Assembly (NCBI GenBank): GCA_026770025.1
Contig: JAMXDE010000017.1
Coordinates: 930,001 to 994,000 of the forward strand
DNA length: 64,000 bases
Direction of reading: 5' to 3'
DNA from: Craspedostauros australis
Taxonomy: Eukaryota; Bacillariophyta; Bacillariophyceae; Mastogloiales; Achnanthaceae
Shown: positions 8,850-57,814 of the stretch, piece after piece
Layout: each line of letters begins with the position of its first letter
Position numbering within the stretch: position 1 is the first letter of the stretch
Notes under the pieces: generated by a model
Database searches by the model: none
Seen by the model: only the letters and a program-made list of their open reading frames with translations
Told to the model about the DNA's origin: nothing
Position numbers and translations under genes: made by a program

Positions 8850-9207
8850 GCACTTGCACTTGCTCTCTCGTTGTGTTGGCGCCGCGTCACACTCACTCTT
8901 TCGCCAGAATAAAAATCGCAGATGGTTCCACATACATTCTCCAATCACAACCACGTATGCACCCATGAGCGACCGTTGAACTGTTGCTGCCGATCTCGAC
9001 ACAAACACATCCCTCATGCTGTTGTGAACAAATAGGCATGTGCTGCTTTGGCTTGTTGAGTGTTGTTGTCGCTGTCTGCTGCATTCTCCTATCTACAATG
9101 TTAGCACAACACTCAGTGCTCCCCAACATCGAGATCATTCAGAATCATCCGTGCCTTCCCCCACCTGCATCATCCATCAGCCACCAAGCCACCACCGCTA
9201 TCGCATC

Positions 9208-12200
9208 ATGACCCATCCACGTGAGGATTCAAGCATCGATCCCAATCCATCCCAATCAAAGGTGCAACGTCGAACAGCAAATGCTGGCACATCCATCCAT
9301 CACCAACCACCTCATGGGCACTACGCATCGTACCAATACTCTGCACCTGTCGGGCCGAACAACCATGGCAGCATCCACAGCCCTCCTCTCCCCATGGTTG
9401 CGAATCATCATGTCCCTCCCAATGCACAACCTCCTTCCTTTTGCATCCCCAGCTACATCAGTACAGGCATGGGTGGTCTACCATACTCGACATTCCACCC
9501 CAACAACAGCATAGCAACTCCCACTTCCAACTACATGGGGCCCAACTGTTTTGGCATTATGCCTTGCAAGCAATGTCTGACCCTGTTCTGCAGTCACTGC
9601 AGTAGGCCACCATTTTGCCCAAACTGTGCGTCATCCATCGGCGGAGGTGCACGTCACGCAGGTGTGAATGCCTTTGTGCCACAGGCAAATTCGTTCTCCA
9701 TTGGGACTCGTAGTGATGCTGCTGCGCCCACACGCCCCAAGCGCAAATCATCAGCAACCAGACGCAGGACGCCAAATCAACACGCAGGAGATGATGTGCT
9801 CGCGCGACGAGATGTCGCTGTGTCTATGGAAGAGTGCGAGTCGGATTGTGCGAGTACGAACAGTGCCGATGACACCGATGTCGAGTATGTTCCAGAAGCA
9901 GAGGATGCTGTAAACAGAAAAGGACTACTTATATCTATCTTCAGATCAGCAGGCATTGGCATTCGAGCAATTTCGAAATTCCCTGTGCGTGGATTTGGAG
10001 GCATCCCACCAAGGGGAGCCAAGCGCCACTGGAGTCTCATCAAACGAATCTGGAAAGAGCTGTGTAGCGGAACATCCGAACATGCAGTCTTCCCTGGCGC
10101 GAAACCATCACCTCAACTTTGGGAAGCCATGACCTTCGTGCGACATCGCAAACAACTCCCTCCTGTGTTGCTGGAGCAGACTCTCTGTCATTTAGCCTTC
10201 TGGGGGAATCGAGACCTGTCACTGACTGCTCGTGCGGTTTTGGCAATGACCTGCAACTCTGGACGCTGCACCCGAATCCTGGCCATGCACTACGGTGGCT
10301 TGTCGAAAGAGGACAAGGCGAAGGTCATGCCAGGATGTCGAACCATGTCTCGTACAGCACACAGGCGACTGTCGCGCGCTGGAGGTGCGATCCTTGCTGG
10401 AGGCCAGTTCCCACACGCAGACTACAAGTACCGTGTCAAGGAATCTAGTCTCCAGGGCGTAGTCTCGTTTCTCACCTCCATGTTCCAGTACCGGCCAGGC
10501 ATCACAAGGAGCGTCAAGTTGGCTGGTGTTCTGTTCCCAGACCTGCCTATCTTCATTCGCGGATCAATACCAGAAGAGCAGCTCTTTGCCAAGTACAAGA
10601 ACACAACAGATGACCCAGTTGGTATGCCTGCCTTCAAGAGTATCCTGACATTGCTCACGCGACGTGGCAAGTGTCAAACCGGCCTGTCCTCCTTCTACAC
10701 AGACACTCTGACTGTATTCATGCACTTTCAAAGCATGATCAAGAGAGTCATGGAACTGCTTCAGACTCAGAACAAGGAACATCAAGACAAAGAGCTCGTG
10801 TCTGAACTTCTGGATGATGCACAGGCCATCATCACGGACAGTGATTCTGTTCTTTCATTTGCGAAATGGGAATACGCGAACAAGCACATCCAGGTGAAGA
10901 CAACAACGGATAATCTACATTCCGCAGAGTTCGCACTGACAAATGGCTCCCTCCCGTTTGTGAACCAAGCATGCAAGCAATGTGCAGATGTCATGACGTT
11001 TTTCCCGATTCGTGTTCGCAACTTCATGAAAACTGCCACCAACAGCATCACTGGCAACACGTTCGAATTGGATCGCATGGCTGCAGCAATTAACCTGTGT
11101 GATGACGCTCTGCGCCAGTACATGGCCCACCAAGTGAGACAAAAGGTACAAGCGCAGAAGATCAAAGAGGAAAAGGAGCGCCTCAAGGACCATCCAGATC
11201 GCATCATTGCCGTGCTTGATCACAAGCAACGCATCCTCCCAACGGAGAATCAGGAAGCTCAGAAAGCGTTCTTCGGAAAAAACGGAATGTCTCTCCTTGG
11301 TGTCATGACAATCCAATACAAGAACGGTAAGTTCGAGTACCGATTCATTGACATGGTGATGAAGGGGCGGAACAAGCAGGATCATGTCCAAGTTGCTGGT
11401 GCCATCAAGATTCTACATTCTACTGTGCTTCCAAAGCTTCACAAGGGGGTCAAAGAGGTCGTATTCCAAAGTGATAATGCCAGTTGTTTCGCGAGTCCGG
11501 CACTGATGAGGTACATGCATGGACTGAACCAGGGAGAGGTTGAAGTTGAATACATGATGCCGGAGAAGAAGAAGAAGAAGCGGAAGACAACAGCCAAGAA
11601 CAAGGGCAAGCACAAGGACAAGGCTAAGTATCCACCTCCCCCCAAAATCAACACAGAACAGTCATCTTATCATGACGCGAAGGCTGCATCATCCACGAAG
11701 GCCAAAGCACAGCAAGACACCGGAACCCGCCCTCCCAAACCACAACTCCAAATCATCCAATGGCTGTACACCGAGGCACAAGCTGGCAAGAGCGCTTTGG
11801 ACGGACACTTCGGTTTTGTCTCACGTCAACTCAGGTTGTATGTGGACAGTGCCAGGGACGCAAAGATTGCCACCGAAGGCGATGTTTTCAAAGTGCTGAA
11901 AGCTGCCAACATCAAGGGGACAACAACGCTTCTGTTGGATCTGAGCAGATTGGGACATGCCATCATGTGTGGTGTGGACGGAAAGGAAAAAGCATTCGCG
12001 ACCAACCGAGTTTCCGTTCGCGCCACCCATCAAATTGATCTGATTGATGACAAAATCCAGGTCACAGCATCATCGGGCTTGACGCATCCAGAGACTATCA
12101 CGCAGGGCAAGATCGACAAGTTCGACATTCTCCATCTCGATGTCACTTGCAATGATGAGGACATCACCGAGGTCTCACCAGCATTCGTGATGGATCCACA

Positions 12201-12858
12201 GAATATCCGCGGCTCACAACCGACTGAGCGACGACACGCAACAGCAACAAACAAGAGCACCACCAAGACGGAAGTGCTCAAACGCGTCCTCACTTCGCGT
12301 GTTCTGGAACCAGCAGCGGCAGCAGCAGAAACGGCAAATTGTGAAGGAAATGCCAAAGTGGACTTCCCTCGATCCATCAGGCAGGGATGGGCGATCTGCC
12401 ACCCAGACAAAGCCACCTCACGAAAGAAGGATCCATCAGCACCTCCGACAACCAAGGTACCGTCCATGTCGAAACAAGTGGCGCAGATTGTGTGCGATGC
12501 TGCGATTGCTTGCAGGAACCCAGACACGAGGAGGAGCGCCCATGTGCTTCACGAAGAGCTGATGGCCGGGCCTTTCATGCTTGATTGGGAGCAGAGGATC
12601 AAGGTGGACATAACGTACCTGAAATGCTTCCTGGCAGCTCCTGACGGTCGAGCGGAGAGATACCTTGAGAACAATGGCTACTTGGACGACGAGGAGTGCG
12701 AAGAGTGCCTGAACGAGATGCATGAACTGCGGATCATGGCATCCAAGGAGAACACTCAAAGCGAAGAAGCGCACGAAGAGCAGGTTCTGGATGATCGCCC
12801 ATACGATGGGCAGGACGCTGATGTGATTGATGGCAACCTGCTACCTTCCGATGATTGA
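9208..12858 (+). CDS. Large transposase-like protein with RNase H-like (DDE) pattern
   Basis: The frame is open from 9040. Met at 9208 (MTHPREDSS) gives 1216 residues and is the likely start, because the upstream part is not protein-like. Numbering from 9040: a CxxC cluster at about 176-196 (PCKQCL, FCSHC, FCPNC) may bind zinc; 230-250 is basic and nuclear-signal-like; 700-940 resembles the core of eukaryotic DDE proteins, with Asp727 in AVLDHKQ, Asp812 in FQSDNASCF and, after a Lys-rich insert, EAQAGKSALDGHFG (Glu912, Asp921). The SDNA and GKS..D..FG pattern recurs in many uncharacterised transposon-derived proteins. I could not place it in a named superfamily and saw no terminal repeats, so it may be a transposon copy or a host gene derived from one. 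The frame is intact over 3.6 kb. Confidence 0.7.
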   Translation: MTHPREDSSIDPNPSQSKVQRRTANAGTSIHHQPPHGHYASYQYSAPVGPNNHGSIHSPPLPMVANHHVPPNAQPPSFCIPSYISTGMGGLPYSTFHPNNSIATPTSNYMGPNCFGIMPCKQCLTLFCSHCSRPPFCPNCASSIGGGARHAGVNAFVPQANSFSIGTRSDAAAPTRPKRKSSATRRRTPNQHAGDDVLARRDVAVSMEECESDCASTNSADDTDVEYVPEAEDAVNRKGLLISIFRSAGIGIRAISKFPVRGFGGIPPRGAKRHWSLIKRIWKELCSGTSEHAVFPGAKPSPQLWEAMTFVRHRKQLPPVLLEQTLCHLAFWGNRDLSLTARAVLAMTCNSGRCTRILAMHYGGLSKEDKAKVMPGCRTMSRTAHRRLSRAGGAILAGGQFPHADYKYRVKESSLQGVVSFLTSMFQYRPGITRSVKLAGVLFPDLPIFIRGSIPEEQLFAKYKNTTDDPVGMPAFKSILTLLTRRGKCQTGLSSFYTDTLTVFMHFQSMIKRVMELLQTQNKEHQDKELVSELLDDAQAIITDSDSVLSFAKWEYANKHIQVKTTTDNLHSAEFALTNGSLPFVNQACKQCADVMTFFPIRVRNFMKTATNSITGNTFELDRMAAAINLCDDALRQYMAHQVRQKVQAQKIKEEKERLKDHPDRIIAVLDHKQRILPTENQEAQKAFFGKNGMSLLGVMTIQYKNGKFEYRFIDMVMKGRNKQDHVQVAGAIKILHSTVLPKLHKGVKEVVFQSDNASCFASPALMRYMHGLNQGEVEVEYMMPEKKKKKRKTTAKNKGKHKDKAKYPPPPKINTEQSSYHDAKAASSTKAKAQQDTGTRPPKPQLQIIQWLYTEAQAGKSALDGHFGFVSRQLRLYVDSARDAKIATEGDVFKVLKAANIKGTTTLLLDLSRLGHAIMCGVDGKEKAFATNRVSVRATHQIDLIDDKIQVTASSGLTHPETITQGKIDKFDILHLDVTCNDEDITEVSPAFVMDPQNIRGSQPTERRHATATNKSTTKTEVLKRVLTSRVLEPAAAAAETANCEGNAKVDFPRSIRQGWAICHPDKATSRKKDPSAPPTTKVPSMSKQVAQIVCDAAIACRNPDTRRSAHVLHEELMAGPFMLDWEQRIKVDITYLKCFLAAPDGRAERYLENNGYLDDEECEECLNEMHELRIMASKENTQSEEAHEEQVLDDRPYDGQDADVIDGNLLPSDD

Positions 12859-42504: not shown

Positions 42505-43860
42505 TCAACTTTCCGCACGCGGTTTATCCATGGCAGCCTGAAGGATCGCCAACCAGGGATCCGCATCATCGTGTGGTTTCAGAATTCTCGCTGTGCGGTT
42601 CCCCTCCATGTTCTCATCGAATCGCACAACCGTCCACCCGAAACCGCCTTGGCTGAGTTTTTCCATACTGAACGGCATGATGTTTGTGATGCGACGGTGT
42701 GCGTGCCTCATCCAAGCAGCCAGGACCGACAAAGCAGATGAAGAACCAATTAAGATGTCGGAATGGATCATTTCAGTAAGGGCATCTGCGACGGTCGCCT
42801 TACTGTCTCGGCCCATCACAGTCATATGCTGGAGATCATTGTTGGTCAGACCGATTCGTGACGTCACATTGGCCACCTTGCCATCCGAGTGGATCACAAA
42901 CTGAAGATCAGGTGGGTTGGGCATCCGCTCGGCAGCCTGCTGAAGATTGCGAATGATTTGCTGGTACAGTTCGCCTGGCTGAATCCGCCTCCTCGCATCT
43001 CCCAGGCGGTAATGCACGACGACGCGGATTTGATGGATCGAATTCGATCCACTATCTCGCATTGTTGTTGAATCCGGCTGTGACCTGATGCCAGGTTCTA
43101 CGATCGGGCTTATGCCATTGTACCACATGTCCTCCATCCACCTGCTCTCCTCGTTGTCTTTGGCGAGCAGGCAGTACACAAAGTCCCAGCAATTGTCGGC
43201 GGTAATGACCGGGATCGGTTTGTGTTCAAAAGAGGAAGCACCATCGCACGCTTTCGTCCGTGTGTCCTCGTCGAACCAGCTGGCTCTTCTGCATCTACCG
43301 ACGCTTGGGAGTGGATCTCTGCGCTCGATTTTCATGGTGAGGTCATCGAAGAGCAATCCTCCCGTCGCCTCCACCGTGCGATGCAACCCGAAGAATGCTT
43401 CCATCTCCCTGGGATTTGCTCCATGCTCCATCTGCGACATCGGAAGATGCACGTAGGTGAGATTCAGCATGGCGGCAGCCATCATGCACGACAGCTTGGC
43501 CTCCAGTTGATGGCCGAATCCGTCAATCCCATAAGAGCTGATCATGCACTTTGACTTGCGTTCTTGCATCGATGCCGTGCGATAGACATGATACTGCCTT
43601 GTAGCTTCATCCATCTCGATGGCAGATGTCGATGGTGACCCTGCTGGTGCTCCCGATGGAGGTTCTGTTGATTCGATGTTCATCGCCAACGTGTTGGTTG
43701 GAGATGTCAAGGTGAACATGTGCAGGTTCTGATTCTGTGACACCAGATTGTCAATGACAAGGCCGACGACCATGCCAAGCACAGCCACGCTCCTGAAAAA
43801 CCTGGGTGGCTTTGGCGTTGCCGGCGCCTCATCAGAGTTGCCAATCGATGTTCGTTTCAT
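42505..43860 (-). CDS. Fucosyltransferase-like type II membrane protein, array copy 1
   Basis: 451 residues. A short basic cytosolic tail, a membrane anchor at about 22-40 (FRSVAVLGMVVGLVIDNLV), a Ser/Pro/Thr stem, then a GT-B-like domain: DGFGHQLEAKL (113-123) resembles the G-G-Q loop, and VVHYRLGD (281-288) the HxRxGD-type donor site, of eukaryotic and bacterial fucosyltransferases; DLQFVIHSDG and SDILIGSSSALSVLAAW resemble the C-terminal nucleotide-sugar half. Sugar donor and acceptor are unknown. Copies 2 and 3 (54188-55543 and 56434-57792) are close paralogs in the same orientation. The C-terminal half of this copy agrees better with copy 3 than with copy 2. Its upstream sequence is cut by the 9.4-kb element 23 bases before the start. 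Confidence 0.75.
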   Translation of the reverse strand: MKRTSIGNSDEAPATPKPPRFFRSVAVLGMVVGLVIDNLVSQNQNLHMFTLTSPTNTLAMNIESTEPPSGAPAGSPSTSAIEMDEATRQYHVYRTASMQERKSKCMISSYGIDGFGHQLEAKLSCMMAAAMLNLTYVHLPMSQMEHGANPREMEAFFGLHRTVEATGGLLFDDLTMKIERRDPLPSVGRCRRASWFDEDTRTKACDGASSFEHKPIPVITADNCWDFVYCLLAKDNEESRWMEDMWYNGISPIVEPGIRSQPDSTTMRDSGSNSIHQIRVVVHYRLGDARRRIQPGELYQQIIRNLQQAAERMPNPPDLQFVIHSDGKVANVTSRIGLTNNDLQHMTVMGRDSKATVADALTEMIHSDILIGSSSALSVLAAWMRHAHRRITNIMPFSMEKLSQGGFGWTVVRFDENMEGNRTARILKPHDDADPWLAILQAAMDKPRAES

Positions 43861-43885
43861 CTCAATGTGGTGTCGATATATCGTA

Positions 43886-43939
43886 CGACCTGCGGATACC
43901 GGAAAATGCGTCGCGCGATAACGCTAGTTGTAGAGTTTT
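43886..43939 (+). repeat. Left terminal inverted repeat of the 9.4-kb element
   Basis: 28 bases identical to the right end (inverted), then, after a short length difference, a further 26 bases with 22 matches, including CTAGTTGT and GAGTTTT. It begins directly after the TA at 43884-43885. Confidence 0.9.
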
Positions 43940-44159
43940 GGGTCCTTGTTGCCACTGGTTTGCTTGCTTCTGGGAGAAACGGCGATTAGATATTTAGAGC
44001 TATTTCGTGTTTGCTCTCGCTGATCCGTCTTCTACGTCACAGGGAACGGATTCCACGTCATGAAACACGAGTCACAACAGAGGAAGAGACATCGTGTGGC
44101 TCTTCCTCCACAAGACAACATGATGACTGTGCGAAGCAACGATCACACACGATGCTACG

Positions 44160-47100
44160 GTGTCATCTTTGCCATCGCAGCAGCAGCAGCAGCAGCAGCA
44201 GCAGCGCAAGCAAGGGGCCAAACTGGGCCTTGTGTCGGCGACGTTGGGATTTGTCGGGACGATGTTTGGAAGAAAGGCTGCCGGTAATGATGCATCCAAG
44301 TCAGAGAAGGGTAGGGAAACTACGGATGCTCAATCGAACACCACCCCCACTGTGCTCAAAGCAGCAACGTCAACCGCAACCTCCGTCGACCAACGCAATG
44401 CCACGACGGCAGGCAGCGGAGCCACTTCAGTCAAATCCACACCCTCCACTCAACACGCCACAGCCAGCGGATGCTCGGCGGCGCCGAGCTCCGTCCGAGT
44501 CGGAGAGAACCAAGCCCGAAACAACCCTGCCATTGTGGCACTGTCCAGGAAAGAGGCGGAAGGTTCGGTATCTGTCATCCCTGCACCCACTTCGGTCAGA
44601 AAGATGCGTGGTAAGCAGGCGGTGGCGGCCTTCGGTGCAATTGCTGCCTCTCAGTCGATGCCAAAGTTCTACAACAATTCGCTTGGCAAGGAATCACCAT
44701 CCAGGATTGGACAAAGCAAGAATGCAAGCGCCGGAACCGAAAAGAGCACCATCTGAAGCATTCACAGCAATCATGATGGTCAGACCACATCCATGGACGT
44801 CACGGATCGCGTCTCCAACCAGCGACATGACAACAGCATGATGCAGGTCCGAATCGCGTCGCCAACAGCCTCTGCAACAGGCATCGATCTTCCAGCGGGA
44901 GCATACGTTGCGAACCGTGTGCTTGCTCCAAATAAGCGGTAACCGGCCCAAACAGCGCGTTCCGCATCCTTGTCTTCTGGGTCCGAGGCCGACCAGCAGT
45001 CGAACGATCAACAGCAGGCCAAGAAATTGGCACGAAATGCCGAACCCCCACCTGTGACCATGACGCAAGCTACCGACAGCGGAGAACAGACCGACAACAT
45101 CGAAGTGCGGGCCGTTTCGGTCATAGATGAAGGATCGCAAAAGTCGGTCCGCTTCAACGAATCAGACTCGTCCAGCACGCAACAATTCCACCAACACCGC
45201 CGACCAAGCGTGATCACAGGAGCCAGCTCGCCACACAGGCCTACATGGTGCAACGACACGTTGTCAAGCGGATCGGTATACTACGACGATTCGACGTACT
45301 CGAACGGAGAGTCACGCTCCAACCGTTCTAATGGCAGCATCAGCAACGGTATTTTCATTTCTGGGGCCGTGGTCGGAGCAGCCGCAGTTGGCGCTGCAGC
45401 GGCCGTGGCAGCTGCAGTTGCATCATCTTCCAACACACGAGACAGATCATCATCCGTCGGTGGAACAGCAACGGAAACAATGCAGAACGCCGGTGGCAGC
45501 AAGCAGTCGCGTCCGTCGGCAGAGAGCAGCGCAAGTGGAACATCCAGCCTGGCATCCAGCGATGTCTACACGAATCGTTCCGAAGGCGTCAAGAATGGCA
45601 ACGTCCGTGCCGTTGACCTCTCTTCTTCGACATCATCTGACTACGAGGCGAAGATTGCAGCAATGATTCGCTTGCAGATGCAGAGAGAAGGCATCGAACC
45701 TCTCACAGAGACCAACAGGCCTCCTCCGGTTCCTCTCGAAGACATCATGGACCTTGCTGCGGCCAAACTGGCTGCTGGTAGTTCATACGAAACCAGCAAC
45801 AAGGACAAATCTGCCAGCAATGACGCATGTCAACCAGGATCTGAAGAGCAAGAACTAGTCGCCGGTGCAGCCAACCCAGTGATAGTCGGCCACCTCGTGG
45901 AAACCGTACGTTCATCTGATGACATCCCAGTTGTCCAGGGCATGGATATTCTCATGCCTGCGCGAGGAACGAACAGCGGTCAATCCACAGCCTCCGAATT
46001 CACCGTCTCCAAGAATGAACGGTCGGTGAGATCTGGTGCAGCTTCCACCAGGAAGTTGTCTTCCAGCTCTGCAGAAAACGAACGCCCTTCGTCGTTCAAT
46101 GACTCCGTCTTGAACAGCCTGTTGGACTCTGACTTGGAAAAGGTTGGGGCACTGGTCGGGCACCAAGACCAATCGAGGCCATCCACAACTCAGAGCGATC
46201 GCAGCTTCGGGAAAGATGACAACAGCAACAAGGACGACGACGCCAACACATTGAAAACCACTGCAGCTATTGGCGTGGCCGCAGCAGTCGTTACGGCGGC
46301 ATCTGTGGCAGCTGCGGCCAAAACCACGACCACGACCACAGCCAAAGCCACAGCTGACGGCAGCCCTGCAGTCAGCGTGGTGACGAGCGCAAGCGCCAAC
46401 TCGAATCCTGTCAATAGCAGCTACACCAACAACACGTCTGCGGCCTCAACAAACGATGTTGCCGACGCCGCTCAAGAAGCATCAGCAACTGTTTCGACTG
46501 GTCACATCAAGTGTAACTCATCCCACAAGTCGATCAGCTCAGCGAAGTCGTCATTGGACGATGTCACCAAGAACGCCTCGACTGGAGTAGCCGCAGGTGC
46601 AGCAGTTGTCCTTGGGGTCGGCGCAGCAATCATGACCAAGTCGTTGATGAATGCAGAAAAGGATTGCAACAATGCTGATGTTGGTGATGCTCCTACTGGA
46701 CATGACCCAATTGATGTCACCGACCACGGAAGCCAGGGTGGTGCGTCACCTGGGAATTGTTCCATCGAGCAAAAAAAAAAACAGCAGAGAGCGTCTCCCG
46801 CTCGCGAAATGTCGAAGAGATCATTGTGCTCGACGACGAAGATGACCACTGCTCCAGTGACAACAAGGGTAACGATGATCACCAGCAGAATCGACCATCG
46901 CAGAGTCATTCCAATGGCGTCATCGTTATCAGCGACTCCATGGAGGAGAAGCATTCGTATGAGGATCCATGGATTGGTGACAGAGACGACGCCCTTGCAT
47001 CACGCGATTCAGCACACAGCACTGGCGCCGACAAGTCTACCACCAACCCAGCTGGTGCAGCACCAGTCATCGACCTTGTGAACTACGACAGCACAAGCTT

Positions 47101-47775
47101 CGAAGTGTACGACGGTGAGAGCGGCGATGGCATTGTGTGCCACAAGATGGATCCCATGGAATCGTGGACAACCCAGCCCAATCCACGACGGCCACAGCCA
47201 CAAACTCACGGGCAAAACAAGGCGCAGTGGTGTCTGAGGAGAGCAAAGGTCAGCAGAAGGCGGGCATCACCTCATCACAGCTGTTGGCCCCGGCTGTTGC
47301 ATCGATGGCCACCATTGGGGTTCTCAGCACCATGGGACGTGCAAGAGACAACGCACAAACGAAAGAAGCCGATGCCAGCACCAAGAAGTCTTCACAAACA
47401 ACCATCATTTCGGAGACGGCATCTGCATCTGCAGTGCCCACTCCGCAAGACGAGACCAGCGCAAAGACTCGATCATGTTCAGCACAAGATGATCCCAGTC
47501 AGGTAATGGGGTCTTCGTCAACACACGATGGCAGCAAAGAGATGGACCCTTCTGCAGCGACGGAGCAAAGCATCCAATCAACACAAACAGGACAGGAGGC
47601 CAAGCGGAACGAATGCGGGCATGACGGCAAGGAGGACGCAACAATCAACGAAGAGGCGTCCAATGGCGACGCACCCAGAAGAGAGGAAGTCCAATCTGCT
47701 CCATCTAGCAAGCTCGAAGCAGTACATGGAGTAGTGGACTGTGCTCTTAGTGTACGAGTATGTAACATATTATAG
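44160..47775 (+). pseudogene. Passenger gene of the 9.4-kb element: Ala/Ser-rich protein with SUMO-interaction-like motifs
   Basis: Starts MSSLPSQQQ after a CAG run at about 44178-44204. The same frame continues from 44160 to 47081 except for a TGA at 44754 and a TAA at 44940; protein-like sequence then moves to a second frame at an 11-A run (46771-46781) and to a third near 47150, ending at 47775. Either the gene is decayed or undetected introns remove these points. The product is Ser/Thr/Ala/Asn-rich with recurrent Gly/Ala helices (LGLVSATLGFVGTMFG; SGAVVGAAAVGAAAAVAAAV; IGVAAAVVTAASVAAAA; GVAAGAAVVLGVGAAIMT; VASMATIGVLSTMG). Three motifs look like SUMO-interaction motifs: IIVLDDEDD (46820-46846), VIVISDS (about 46917-46937) and VIDLV (about 47066-47080). 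No named family was recognised. Confidence 0.6.
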
Positions 47776-48448
47776 GAGCTGCACTAGCACATCACAACAT
47801 AGCATAGTATAGCATACGAGCATTGTATGGTGTGTATTCGTTGCGATCTGCTTCACTCTCCTCTGCTCTACCAATACATGACGATCGTGCTAGCGGCAGT
47901 GCCGTCGGCAGGGCACGAGCAGAGACGAATGATCAGAGGATGCATCGTTGGTGCTCCAGTGACGAGCACAGACGCTGGGACTTGATGGCAGCAAAGATCG
48001 CGAGGGTTGTACATGTGTGATGAAAAGGAAGTGGAGTACTAGCATGGTACAATGTGGTACAGATGTACAAGTGCGGTACCAACAAAGAGGAGCCTTTGCC
48101 ATTCGATGGGTTTGTGCAACACACACCGATTGTACTGGCGCTCCGATCGACGCAGTTGAGGCCTTGGAGCGTTTTTTGTGTGTGGTTCGGCTGGAATTTT
48201 CCGATCAGAGCGGCACAACACAACGTGACGGCTTCACAGCGCGATGGCTCCATCACGCACACCATTCACGACACAAAAAAACGGTCCGCGTCACAAAAAT
48301 CACACCACTCATCACAAAACACAAAACAAACATCACACACCATGCCACACATCACAATCCTCCATGCCATCAAGCAGACGATGTGCACACAGGCACTCCA
48401 ATCACAGGTGCACCTAAAACATATGATAACTAATACTTCGATTTGCAG

Positions 48449-51043
<2,595 letters not shown>

Positions 51044-53260
51044 GGACCCTGCCGCTTGAGCTCTGGTGGGATGCCACCTTCACACAGTCACCAGCGCGCA
51101 GCATGCTTGCGAGGTGAAGAGTTCAGTGGTTGCGGGATGATACAACTACGTCCAATGTTGGTGAAGGTTGACAGAACTGTGTTATTGTGTGTGCTTGTTT
51201 GAAGTGATGGTTTACAAAGTTAAGTTTGTTGAGATTATGAGCTCATCAATAAGAGCTCATCATCTTCCTGTTTTCTACTTCTTGGCTCCAATAATGGTGC
51301 TATTCACCATTGTCCATCATGTTGTAACCATGCCAAACTTCTGGTTACTCTTGCTAATTAGTGTATCTGTGTCCAAACATGTGCTATGACACATGTTTGG
51401 AGGTCTAATAGAGTCTCTTTGATCCTCTTGGATCATCTTCCTAATTTTGTCTTGGGTCTGAAACCCGCATCACATTTTCCGAATTCTTTCGAGTAGTTTT
51501 CTTGGATCTTTCGAATCGAAGTGTGATTGACACAAAGGACTCAAAACTCGAACAACGATTGGATTGATTCAGCACACATGGTCTAACAACAAGGGAACTC
51601 ATGGTGAATACTAGCTGTGTGTCAATAGAGGTTGCAAGCTGATTGTACGAGATTGGCTGGTCATGACGCACATCAGGCACACAAGGAGAACAGCACAGCA
51701 CAGCACAGCGCATCACCAGTCATTGACGCGCAGCACGGCGCAGCGCACCACAGAACGGCATGGACAACACAGGAGGATGGTCACAAGGTGCCTTGTACCA
51801 TCCACTCTTTCCTTCGTGGGAAGGTCACAGTCATTCTACATTCTGTGTAAGCTATGACTACAAGCAGCAGAGAAACAGGAGGAACTCGTTTGAGATGCGC
51901 TGTGTTTCCTCTGTCAACTTTGTGAGGAGGATTTTGTGCCTCTGCTGTATCGTTGTGGAATGGATTCGCAATTCGGGACTCGCAAAGTGTTCTCATTGAT
52001 GAGCGCATTCGGTAGATTTGTGGTTAATTTCCATGGCCCCCAACAGCAAAAACTGTTTGAGAACACCAAACACAACACAACAACACGACAATGGAGAAAC
52101 ACAACAAAACTCCACAAGCGCCGTCGAACGGCATCGATGGCACTGCCACAACCAGCGGTCCAGTGCAAGATCTGAGCGCATAGGCGGAACCGCCATGTAA
52201 AGTTTGGTGGATGAGCGAGAGGGGGATGCCATCCTGGTTTATTTGGGGCCGTGGCAGGCCCACGCGCACACGACACGATTCCGAGCAAAATATGCTCATT
52301 GGATATGGTCTCTGCCTGGAATGCACAGGCCATTCCAACGACCATGGATGGGCAAGACGTATCCAAGAGGATACGATTAAGATGCACACGAAGTTTGAGG
52401 GTGGGGGGTGGCCTGGAAGGTGCCCTCCGCAAGAAACAAGTGGCAGGCAAGAGTTTTTTGGTGGGTGGCGGCGGACACATCACGTGACTTCGCTGGTGAT
52501 GGGTGCCATTGACAAGTCACCCAGATCGCCAAGCCACCCATTCAAGATGTGTTCATAAATAACTCAGGGATCGGTTCATGAAGCATCAGAAAAAACAAAG
52601 GTCTGGAAGAGGCTGCAAGGTGGGATGCACACAAAAGGGGTTTTTTGGGGTGTCGGAAAAACAGCATGATGACATCATCACAAGGAGGTGTACCTTTGGA
52701 GGTATGAACGCCCCACCCATTCTGAACACATCAATGTGTCGCCAGAGAATGTGGGAACGCGTGGGGAGCATGTGGAGGAGCTGCAAGGATCGTATCGACG
52801 AGATACGGATCCAAATACGAATGGCATCCGCGTCGGAATCGGGTGTTCGAAAATTCTGCGTTTCAGTGCAGGGAGCCTTTGGGATATCCAATGCGCCCAG
52901 ATTTTTCTGTCCTTCATGGAGTGGATAGATGGGGGGTGTGCGGAGCCAATGTGGTGCGCGGATTGTGAAAATGCCAGGGATGATAATGATGATCATGGGT
53001 GCTGAAGGTAGGGCAGCATGGTGCCATCGAGAATTTTCTGCACCCACCACCTGACTGACAGCAAGCCAAAACGACATTAAAAATAAAGTTCATACAAATT
53101 TAACTTCGATATTCAGAATCACTGATAGCCACGCGTTCGAATGCACTGTCTATTTTTAATTTTAAACGATGTGTTGTTGAGATATAACATCATAAGCAGT
53201 TGTTTGGATGGTTTTGGGTGTGCTCTATTTTAGTCTACTTTATCACGACTCATCACGAGT
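51044..53260. other. Non-coding right arm of the 9.4-kb element
   Basis: About 2.2 kb between the transposase start and the right terminal repeat, with no supported gene. It contains a perfect 12-bp palindrome at 51372-51401 and presumably the transposase promoter. Frames on both strands are short and overlapping. Confidence 0.6.
51372..51401. repeat. 12-bp perfect inverted repeat
   Basis: TCCAAACATGTG at 51372-51383 is mirrored at 51390-51401, with a 6-base loop, about 330 bases upstream of the transposase start. It could be a protein-binding site or an RNA hairpin. Confidence 0.6.
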
Positions 53261-53322
53261 AAAACTCCACAACTAGTGCTATCGCCTACAGACTCGACGC
53301 ATTTTCCGGTATCCGCAGGTCG
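53261..53322 (-). repeat. Right terminal inverted repeat of the 9.4-kb element
   Basis: Mirror of the left end: 28 perfect bases at 53295-53322, then an insertion of a few bases relative to the left end, then AAAACTCCACAACTAG (53261-53276) matching the inner left repeat. It is followed directly by TA at 53323-53324. Confidence 0.9.
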
Positions 53323-55566
53323 TATTGCTCCAAACTGCGCTACTTTCTGTTCTGAATATTCTTGAGCATTGAGATTGCTGTCCGACTCGTCTCTTGGATC
53401 CAGAGAGCCAGAATGTCCACAGGGTACTTGTTGCGACTGGGGGGGGATGAAGCCCGCTATTGAAGTGAGCGGTATGATGAGGTATGAAGTGGTTCTAATG
53501 ATGGATTATGACTGAAGTCTGTGTGTTTGTTTTGGACGATCTCCTCTTTTGTTGTTCGATGTCTTTTGCCAGTCTTTTGCCGGTCTTTTGGACGCCTTTG
53601 ACGTAGTCCATCGAGTCGTCTCGTTATCCGTGACTGGAGACTCGGTGGAAGATACCAATCAACAATTGGCGTCATCAAACAAGTTCGTGCCCAAAATCAC
53701 AACTCCTCCATCATCTTACGTCGTCTGCCATGTTCATTGAAGCTTCAGATCCTCAGGCATGATGCACCATCTTCAAGCATTGTCATCTTTCGTTCGGCCA
53801 GAAGACTGAAGACGTCAGAGTCATCGGTCATCCTGTTCCGATCACCGCTCTACTAACACTGAGGGCTGACATTTCGTGCCTTCGCACGATGCATGCATGC
53901 CCTCGTTCAACCTCGCACTGCAGTAGAAGACGCAAGTCAAGTCATCATAAATCAGCCTTTCACACTATTACAAGAACGTTTTCCGACTCATTCAACTGCG
54001 CTGCTGCTGCCGTGGCTCCAATAAAAAGCGTCAAACAAATACGTAGCCTGATGGTACGAACCTAGAGATAGAAAGATGGTGCAAGTGTGCAGAGAGTACA
54101 TGTACCACACCGCTATTCTCCCTCCCCCGACGAACGCAGCAGCATTGGCGGTATTGTCGCCACGACTATGCAATACTTGTATCACGATTAACTTAACGCA
54201 TGCGGTTTATCCATGGCAGCCTGAAGGATCGCCAACCAGGGATCCGCATCATTGTGTGGCAGTTTCAGCATTTTCACTGTGCGGTTTCCCATGTTCTCAT
54301 CGAATCGCACAATCGTCCACCCGAAAGCGCCTTGCCTGACTTTGATAGTACTGAACGGCATGATGTTTGTGATGCGATGGTGTGCGTGCCTCATCCAAGC
54401 AGCCGCGTTCGACAAAGAAGATGTAGAACCAATGAAGATGTCGGACTGAATCATGTCAGCAATGGCATCTGTGACGGTCGCCTTACTGTCTCGGCCCATC
54501 ACAGACACATGCTGGAGATCATTGTGGGTCAGACCGATTCGTGACGTAACTTCGGCCAACTTGCCATCCGAGTGGATCACAAACTGAAGATCAGGTGGGT
54601 TGGGCATCCGCTCGGCAGCCTGCTGAAGATTGTGAATGATTTGCTTGTACAGTTCGCCTGGTTGGATCCGCTCAGCCGCATCTCCCAGGCGGTAATGCAC
54701 GACGACACGGATTTGATGGATCGAATTCGATCCACTATCTCGCATTGTTGTTGCATTCGGCTGTGACCTGATGCCACGTGCTACGATCGGACTGATGCCA
54801 TTGTACCACATGTTCTCCATCCGCCTGCTCTCCTCGTTGTCTTTGGCAACCACGCAGTACACAAAGTCCGAGCAATTGTCGGCGGTGAACACCAGGACCA
54901 GTTTGCGTTCAAAAGAGGAAGCACCATCGCACGCTTTCGCCCGTACGTCCTCGTCGAACCAGCTGGCCTGTTCGCATTTGCCGGCGCTGGGGAGTGGATC
55001 TCTGCGCTCAATTTTCATGGTGAGGTCATCGAAGAGCAATCCTCCCGCCGCCTCCACCGTGCGACCCAACCCGAAGAAATCTTCCATCTTCCTGGGATTT
55101 GCTCCGTGCTGCATCTGCGACATCGGAAGATGCACGTAGGTGAGATTCAGCATGGCGGCAGCCATCATGCAGGTCAGCTTGGCCTCCAGTTGATGGCCGA
55201 ATCCGTCAATCCCATAAGAGCTGATCATGCACTTCGACTTGCGTTCTTGCATCGATGCCGCGCGATAGACATGATACTGCCTTGTAGCTTCATCCATCTC
55301 GATGGCAGATGTCGATGGTGACCCTGCTGGTGCTCCCAATGGAGGTTCTGTTGATTCGATGTTCATCGCCAACTTGTTGGTTGGAGATGTCAAGGTGAAC
55401 ATGTGCAGGTTCTGACTCTGTGACACCAAATGGTCGATGACAAGGCCGACGACCAAACAAAGCACAGCCACGCTCCTGAAAAACCTGGGTGGCTTTGGCG
55501 TTGCTGGCGCCTCATCAGAGTTGCCGATCGATGTTCGTTTCATCTCAATGTGGTGTCGATATATCG
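53323..55566. repeat. Tandem segmental duplication, unit A (gene copy 2)
   Basis: A 2.24-kb unit, repeated head to tail as unit B from 55567. The non-coding 3' part (53323-54187) is almost identical to 55567-56433, apart from the length of a G run near 53440 and 55683, which changes the offset from 2244 to 2246. The unit ends at the TATCGTA junction that equals the empty site of the 9.4-kb element. Confidence 0.9.
54188..55543 (-). CDS. Fucosyltransferase-like type II membrane protein, array copy 2
   Basis: 451 residues, same architecture as copy 1: anchor at about 22-40, GFGHQ loop, VVHYRLGD. It is the most diverged copy in the middle of the domain (ERKLVLVFTADNCSDF, EESRRMENMWYNG, GDAAERIQPGELYKQ), but its 3' flank is nearly identical to that of copy 3. 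The frame is intact. Confidence 0.75.
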   Translation of the reverse strand: MKRTSIGNSDEAPATPKPPRFFRSVAVLCLVVGLVIDHLVSQSQNLHMFTLTSPTNKLAMNIESTEPPLGAPAGSPSTSAIEMDEATRQYHVYRAASMQERKSKCMISSYGIDGFGHQLEAKLTCMMAAAMLNLTYVHLPMSQMQHGANPRKMEDFFGLGRTVEAAGGLLFDDLTMKIERRDPLPSAGKCEQASWFDEDVRAKACDGASSFERKLVLVFTADNCSDFVYCVVAKDNEESRRMENMWYNGISPIVARGIRSQPNATTMRDSGSNSIHQIRVVVHYRLGDAAERIQPGELYKQIIHNLQQAAERMPNPPDLQFVIHSDGKLAEVTSRIGLTHNDLQHVSVMGRDSKATVTDAIADMIQSDIFIGSTSSLSNAAAWMRHAHHRITNIMPFSTIKVRQGAFGWTIVRFDENMGNRTVKMLKLPHNDADPWLAILQAAMDKPHALS

Positions 55567-57814
55567 TATTGCTCCAAACTGCGCTACTTTCTGTTCTGAA
55601 TATTCTTGAGCATTGAGATTGCTGTCCGACTCGTCTCTTGGATCCAGAGAGCCAGAATGTCCACAGGGTACTTGTTGCGACTGGGGGGGGGGATGAAGCC
55701 CGCTATTGAAGTGAGCGGTATGATGAGGTATGAAGTGGTTCTAATGATGGATTATGACTGAAGTCTGTGTGTTTGTTTTGGACGATCTCCTCTTTTGTTG
55801 TTCGATGTCTTTTGCCAGTCTTTTGCCGGTCTTTTGGACGCCTTTGACGTAGTCCATCGAGTCGTCTCGTTATCCGTGACTGGAGACTCGGTGGAAGATA
55901 CCAATCAACAATTGGCGTCATCAAACAAGTTCGTGCCCAAAATCACAACTCCTCCATCATCTTACGTCGTCTGCCATGTTCATTGAAGCTTCAGATCCTC
56001 AGGCATGATGCACCATCTTCAAGCATTGTCATCTTTCGTTCGGCCAGAAGACTGAAGACGTCAGAGTCATCGGTCATCCTGTTCCGATCACCGCTCTACT
56101 AACACTGAGGGCTGACATTTCGTGCCTTCGCACGATGCATGCATGCCCTCGTTCAACCTCGCACTGCAGTAGAAGACGCAAGTCAAGTCATCATAAATCA
56201 GCCTTTCACACTATTACAAGAACGTTTTCCGACTCATTCAACTGCGCTGCTGCTGCCGTGGCTCCAATAAAAAGCGTCAAACAAATACGTAGCCTGATGG
56301 TACGAACCTAGAGATAGAAAGATGGCGCAAGTGTGCAGAGAGCACATGTACCACACCGCTATTCTCCCTCCCCCGACGAACGCAGCAGCATTGGCGGTAT
56401 TATCGCCACGACTATGCAATACTTGTATCACGATTAACTTAACGCACGCGGTTTATCCATGGCAGCCTGAAGGATCGCCAACCAGGGATCCGCATCATTG
56501 TGTGGCAGTTTCAGAATTCTCGCTGTGCGGTTCCCCTCCATGTCCTCATCCAATCGCACAACCGTCCACCCGAAACCGCCTTGGCTGAGTTTTTCAGTAC
56601 TGAACGGCATGATGTTTGTGATGCGGCGGTGTGCGTGCCTCATCCAAGCAGCCAGGACCGACAAAGCAGATGAAGAACCAATTAAGATGTCGGAATGGAT
56701 CATTTCAGTAAGGGCATCTGCGACGGTCGCCTTACTGTCTCGGCCCATCACAGTCATATGCTGGAGATCATTGTGGGTCAGACCGATTCGTGACGTAACT
56801 TCGGCCACCTTGCCATCCGAGTGGATCACAAACTGAAGATCAGGTGGGTTGGACATCCGCTCGGCAGCCTGCTGAAGATTGCGAATGATTTGCTGGTACA
56901 GTTCGCCTGGCTGAATCCGCCTCCTCGCATCTCCCAGGCGGTAATGCACGACGACACGGATTTGATGGATCGAATTCGATCCACTATCTCGCATTGTTGT
57001 TGAATCCGCCTGTGACCTGATGCCAGGTTCTACGATCGGGCTTATGCCATTGTACCACAGGTCCTCCATCCACCTGCTCTCCTCGTTGTCTTTGGCAAGC
57101 AGGCAGTACACAAAGTCCCAGCAATTGTCGGCGGTAAAGACCGGGATCGGTTTGTGTTCAAAAGAGGAAGCACCATCGCACGCTTTCGTCCGTGTGTCCT
57201 CGTCGAACCAGCTGGCCTGTTTGCATTTGCCGGCCCAAGGGAGTGGAGCTCTGGGCTCGATGTTCATGGTGCGGTTATCGAAGAGCAATCCTCCCGTCGC
57301 CTCCACCGTGCGACCCAACCCGAAGAAATCTTCCATCTCCCTGGGATTTGCTCCGTGCTGCATCCGCGACATCGGAAGATGCACGTAGGTGAGATTCAGC
57401 ATGGCGGCAGCTATGATGCACGACAGCTTGGCCTCAATTTGATGGCCGAATCCATCCCCTCCATAAGAGCTGATCATGCACTTTGACTTGCGTTCTTGCA
57501 TCGAGGCCGTGCGATAGACATGATACTGCCTTGTAGCTTCATCCATCTCGATGGCAGATGTCGATGGTGACCCTGATGGTGCTCCCGATGGAGGTTCTGT
57601 TGATTCGATGTTCATCGCCAACGTGTTGGTTGGAGATGCCAAGGTGAACCTGTGCAGGTTCTGATTCTGTGACACCAGATTGGTGATGACGAGGCCGACA
57701 ACCATACCAAGCACAACCACGCTCCTGGAAAACCTGGGTGGCTTTGGCGTTGCTGGCGCCCCATCAGAGTTGCCGATCGATGTTCGTTTCATCTCAATGT
57801 GGTGTCGTTATTTC
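55567..57814. repeat. Tandem segmental duplication, unit B (gene copy 3)
   Basis: Second full unit, matching unit A at an offset of 2244-2246 bases. Its right end (57793-57815) leads into a diverged copy of the unit's beginning. Confidence 0.9.
56434..57792 (-). CDS. Fucosyltransferase-like type II membrane protein, array copy 3
   Basis: 452 residues, same architecture as copies 1 and 2. Its C-terminal half is close to copy 1 (GDARRRIQPGELYQQ; SDILIGSSSALSVLAAW), while FGLGRTVEA and part of the C-terminal tail agree with copy 2. This is a mosaic expected after gene conversion among the copies. The frame is intact. Confidence 0.75.
   Translation of the reverse strand: MKRTSIGNSDGAPATPKPPRFSRSVVVLGMVVGLVITNLVSQNQNLHRFTLASPTNTLAMNIESTEPPSGAPSGSPSTSAIEMDEATRQYHVYRTASMQERKSKCMISSYGGDGFGHQIEAKLSCIIAAAMLNLTYVHLPMSRMQHGANPREMEDFFGLGRTVEATGGLLFDNRTMNIEPRAPLPWAGKCKQASWFDEDTRTKACDGASSFEHKPIPVFTADNCWDFVYCLLAKDNEESRWMEDLWYNGISPIVEPGIRSQADSTTMRDSGSNSIHQIRVVVHYRLGDARRRIQPGELYQQIIRNLQQAAERMSNPPDLQFVIHSDGKVAEVTSRIGLTHNDLQHMTVMGRDSKATVADALTEMIHSDILIGSSSALSVLAAWMRHAHRRITNIMPFSTEKLSQGGFGWTVVRLDEDMEGNRTARILKLPHNDADPWLAILQAAMDKPRALS

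Follow-up and report, generated by a model that had tools for sequence, protein, structure and literature searches.

The window, a 64-kb stretch of Craspedostauros australis contig JAMXDE010000017.1, contains a 9,441-bp element (43884-53324) that is a TA-inserting Tc1/mariner-like DNA transposon, keeps a transposase frame and carries host-gene DNA. The features of the element, including its terminal inverted repeats (TIRs), and its empty site are as follows.

43884-43913, + strand: left TA (43884-43885) and 28-bp TIR, class T1
43914-44140, + strand: left subterminal block, common to most copies read
44135-47719, + strand: cargo A, a host-gene fragment with its donor at C24 near 285 kb
47718-47759, + strand: 42-bp remnant of cargo C (TPR-like; candidate donor at C49 near 345 kb)
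47759-48118, + strand: remnant of the sequence downstream of the host N-acetylglutamate synthase (NAGS) stop, 82% over 365 aligned positions
48452-51010, - strand: transposase from the conserved ATG at 51010, 853 codons, with the frame open to 51079
Transposase codons 161-235 (counted from 51079): helix-turn-helix-like, TIR-linked segment
51080-53294, no strand: right non-coding block, common to other copies, 85-97% in the longer matches
53295-53324, - strand: right 28-bp TIR and TA (53323-53324), class T1
55567-55568, no strand: empty-site TA in the neighbouring tandem unit

Both ends bear TA, the TIRs match at 28/28 bp (30 counting TA), and gapped end-to-end similarity extends beyond them to about 60 bp. 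The flanks, when fused at one TA, form an unbroken alignment with positions 55067-56070 of the neighbouring unit (97.8% over 1,004 bp), where the empty site is a single TA. An earlier sequence-only reading of this DNA had described a base-exact, TA-inserted mariner-like unit with its pre-insertion sequence at 55558-55580, and both claims are upheld. The simplest reading of the empty site is that the tandem array is older than the insertion, although it may instead represent an empty allele or the product of precise excision. With its presumed ATG at 43860 on the minus strand, the first of three reading frames in tandem starts about 24 nt downstream of the insertion; Pfam gave no match for this first frame. 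Elsewhere in the window, a 1,276-codon open frame (9028-12858, + strand) has no significant Pfam match. A genome search with the element's end, proposed by the same reading, retrieved eight matches to the 30-base end with up to three mismatches in the 74.8 Mb searched (90 contigs), and none to the reversed control.

Transposase and terminal repeat classes

The open frame at 48452-51079 (minus strand) contains three aspartates, D391, D554 and D593, that are invariant in all 11 aligned transposases. The second and third are 38 residues apart, and the adjacent D594, which would give 39, is N in one copy; the triad is therefore DD38D and not DD39D as first assigned. The accompanying description of the transposase as intact stands for the open frame and its triad, and in full only if ATG 51010 is the start. 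The stretch upstream of this ATG is out of frame here and in frame in other copies, where it shows a pN/pS of 0.55 over 32 codons. Genome matches covering most of the transposase at 76-100% identity number at least 52, a lower bound from 52 scored of 359 candidates, and eight of them contain stops. The median dN/dS among 18 copies was 0.35, taken from 148 of 153 pairs after exclusion of the five whose dS did not exceed 0.02. In this copy, the catalytic part yielded no Pfam match, and its profile no PDB match, so the superfamily call rests on the TA, the TIRs and the motifs, which we take to resemble those of the mariner superfamily. The variable segment gave only weak helix-turn-helix matches, with HTH_Tnp_Tc3_2 found in one of 11 members (E 0.018). 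Near the transposase C-terminus, a long run of Asn codons (window 48556-48682) varies widely in length between copies and is short or absent in several.

In each of the eight complete copies (listed below), the TIR class is the same at both ends, 23-28 of the 28 bp are identical and TA is present at both ends; it is the central part of the 28 bp that distinguishes the classes. Pattern searches returned 8 matches for T1, 24 for T2, 42 for T3 and 63 for T5, with zero in the controls; facing pairs numbered 8 for T2, 18 for T3 and 11 for T5. In all 18 copies with an assigned class, transposase lineage agreed with TIR class, that of C47 being taken from the right end alone and that of C2 (1,511 kb) from the left end alone. 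In the underlying tree of 20 sequences, of which C5 and C32 were left out of the class count (class unassigned), the sequences of T1 (n=2), T2 (n=3), T3 (n=5) and T5 (n=6, three sequence variants T5, T5b and T5c being pooled) group by class, whereas T4 and T6 are represented by one sequence each.

Other loci bear similar ends. Two 1,569-bp spans between T2-like ends (C8:1,690,692-1,692,260 and C64:229,479-231,047) are possibly short non-autonomous derivatives. A third span (C61:130,859-145,638), excluded from the copy counts, comprises 14.8 kb between two T1 ends with a 1,472-codon AAA-ATPase-type frame, 0.7-kb inverted repeats, some 50 bp of right-end sequence and a partial transposase; it is perhaps a giant non-autonomous relative, or else two separate ends.

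Host-gene sequences in a single slot

The complete copies are:

C15 (this element): 9,441 bp
C51: 9,320 bp
C12: 8,866 bp
C28: 9,518 bp
C31: 7,065 bp
C52: 7,703 bp
C72: 7,827 bp
C14: 9,322 bp

Common to the copies are the left block, the transposase and the right block, while the slot that separates the left block from the transposase, filled with host-derived sequence, differs in content. Eight complete copies of 7.1-9.5 kb with this same plan bear out the proposal of an unusually large mariner-like element with relatives in the genome, and they rule out a chance nesting of a smaller element, the outcome expected had no other locus shared its ends and plan. The question raised earlier, whether all copies carry the second gene, has a divided answer: relatives were found, but their slot cargos differ and several have other TIRs. 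The copies read were picked from hit lists and not at random, so that their frequencies are uninformative on the genome, and the genome search counts are lower bounds. Cargos other than cargo A were assigned as follows.

C52 and C72: NAGS
C1 near 3,779 kb: NAGS, decayed
C1 near 1,517 kb: PCMT-like piece flanked by NAGS-like ends
C31 and C26: TPR-like gene (cargo C)
C28 and C20: Ser/Pro/Thr- and Cys-rich protein

Pfam backs the amino-acid kinase and PCMT parts of the cargos; the names NAGS and TPR-like are our own reading. The NAGS donor lies at C24 near 208 kb (93%, frame 891) and the candidate donor of the TPR-like cargo at C49 near 345 kb. These two loci and the cargo A donor reach past the respective cargo on both sides, and no element blocks were found in the stretches read there. 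The two donors on C24 are less than 80 kb apart on one contig, which may be chance. The Ser/Pro/Thr-rich cargo has at least 46 matches at 76-100% and at least 71 at about 45-51% (117 scored of 428 candidates), and its match on C13 (85%) sits in a 919-codon frame. The NAGS cargo of C52 and C72 has a 617-codon frame with no stop in the compared codons and a dN/dS of 0.32 between the copies, and might still be read.

Cargo A spans about 3.6 kb, and C24 near 285 kb holds the same sequence within a 5,037-codon open frame that runs beyond it on both sides, which makes cargo A an internal fragment; the donor gene encodes a giant disordered protein. Measured against the host frame, this copy has stops in frame at 44754 and 44940 as well as two indels, near 46779 and 47155, that shift the frame. 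What had been taken for a second gene of the element is thus a decayed piece of a host gene, probably without function in this copy. Stops, frameshifts or both occur in 10 of 10 element copies of cargo A compared, some of which were read in part only, and the median dN/dS is 0.63 (45 pairs). A working passenger gene is rejected for cargo A by its position inside a host gene and by its stops and frameshifts. A large mariner element whose second gene is native to it and works on its behalf would fit the full length of the cargo in several copies and the stop-free NAGS-type cargo with its low dN/dS, but this explanation is very improbable given that cargo A comes from within a host gene, that all 10 copies are disrupted at a median dN/dS of 0.63, and that other copies hold unrelated cargo. 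An additional copy at C23 near 506 kb, left out of the 10-copy comparison and other counts, has no transposase match in the stretch read; for its cargo, the genome search reported an open frame of 1,276 codons, whereas direct reading of the same stretch gave a single stop, several indels that shift the frame and no frame longer than 535 codons.

In all 10 copies tested, NAGS sequence surrounds the slot, and a remnant of cargo C is retained here; the captures are thus nested, NAGS having been captured before cargo C, and cargo C before cargo A. The left junction of cargo A is marked by AGCAAC (44135-44140), a 6-bp microhomology between element and donor, and at the right junction only about 2 bp are common to both. 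A smaller T3 element (C16:161,804-167,083) measures 5,280 bp between TIR pattern matches; reading inward from the left end for 750 bases gave part of the left block followed by transposase-side sequence, and no NAGS match. This relative would represent either the state before capture or a later loss of cargo.

Histories of cargo and transposase

Cargo A was found with TIR classes T1, T3, T4 and T5. Several independent captures, requiring no exchange between lineages, would be compatible with the closer similarity of the C51 cargo to the host copy (96.3%, versus 92.7-95.1% for the other nine), a difference that allows for a second capture or a conversion. However, the left junction is the same in the seven other cargo A copies with the left end read, six of seven right junctions checked resemble one another, and the C51 cargo joins the following block as in other copies; independent captures are accordingly improbable. 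Five copies with both parts read were used for topology tests, in which the cargo favoured ((C15,C47),(C51,C12),C14) and the transposase favoured ((C15,C47),(C12,C14),C51). Each part rejected the topology of the other, the cargo with p-AU 2e-4 and the transposase with p-AU of about 2e-145.

Between this copy and C20, transposase dS is 0.06 in codons 24-160 and 1.74 in codons 161-235 (0 of 10,000 permutations), and the reverse is found with C47, of the same TIR class (0.35 in codons 76-160 and 0.07 in codons 161-235). Over all pairs, mean dS peaks at 0.56 in codons 151-225, versus 0.14-0.48 elsewhere. A pattern of this kind would result from recombination around a binding segment linked to the TIR. 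Rapid evolution of the variable segment by selection alone, without recombination, agrees with its expected role as the TIR binder and its difference between TIR classes; it is nevertheless highly unlikely, since synonymous divergence rises in the same segment, the dN/dS of the segment is low (0.28) and the cargo and transposase trees conflict. TIR classes match transposase lineages while the cargo and other stretches have different histories, and the copies have therefore recombined.

Judged from sequence comparisons, the most probable reading (about 0.82) is that transposase-bearing mariner-like elements serially captured pieces of host genes and traded them by recombination, while the TIR and the DNA-binding segment were kept matched. 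Capture could proceed by template switching at short matches as a break within the element is repaired, cargo would move between lineages via recombination or gene conversion among copies, and selection would retain those combinations in which the DNA-binding segment of the transposase fits the TIR. A broader and more tentative proposal, for which we would give somewhat less than even odds, is that of a modular family in which TIR and binding segment define compatible groups and one slot takes up, overwrites and trades host-gene pieces. If this modular reading were true, transposase-bearing elements would circulate host-gene pieces in the manner of bacterial mosaic mobile elements. Most descriptions of gene capture by DNA transposons concern copies that lack a transposase; in this case, open transposase frames occur in one genome together with candidate donors, captures made in succession, a smaller relative and recombinants. 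The junctions, the succession of events and the rule matching TIR to binding segment are directly readable and testable, and the TIR classes offer natural pairings in which to study the divergence of transposase specificity.

Relation to known gene-capturing transposons

The element has a duplicated TA target, short TIRs and a DDD triad, features of the Tc1/mariner superfamily. Plant-type mariner-like elements likewise have a TA target, short TIRs and a DDD triad, which in their case is DD39D. The present family differs from the DD39D group in its spacing of 38 residues between the second and third D, in its transposase of about 855 aa and in the lack of a profile match, and it has a larger body, 7-9.5 kb with cargo and 5.3 kb in the relative that showed no NAGS match in the part read. 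No relatives were confirmed elsewhere by pattern scans of viral contigs (19 stretches) and GTDB genomes (16 stretches).

Pack-TYPE elements, including the rice Pack-Mariners, are defined as non-autonomous in PMC8903248. As in the elements described there, host coding fragments, partly from multiple loci, lie between TIRs and were multiplied with the element, but here an open transposase frame, recognized as such from its sequence, accompanies the fragments, which are nested in one slot and combined with varied TIR classes. For animal Pack-TIRs, the accessible part of PMC8277862 sets out gap-filling and FoSTeST models with microhomology of 1-36 bp (median 2 bp); the cargo A junctions, with about 2 and 6 bp, are similarly consistent with template switching at microhomology, whereas nested captures and exchange between TIR classes, as suggested here, are not mentioned in that part of the source. 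Nor did any of the matches listed from the open-access literature (including PMC13317346 and PMC6431247, as excerpted) describe mariner-like elements that bear a transposase along with nested and exchanged cargo. The element family is thus best read as a variation on the known Pack-TYPE gene capture, its new features being cargo that is borne alongside a transposase, nested and exchanged.
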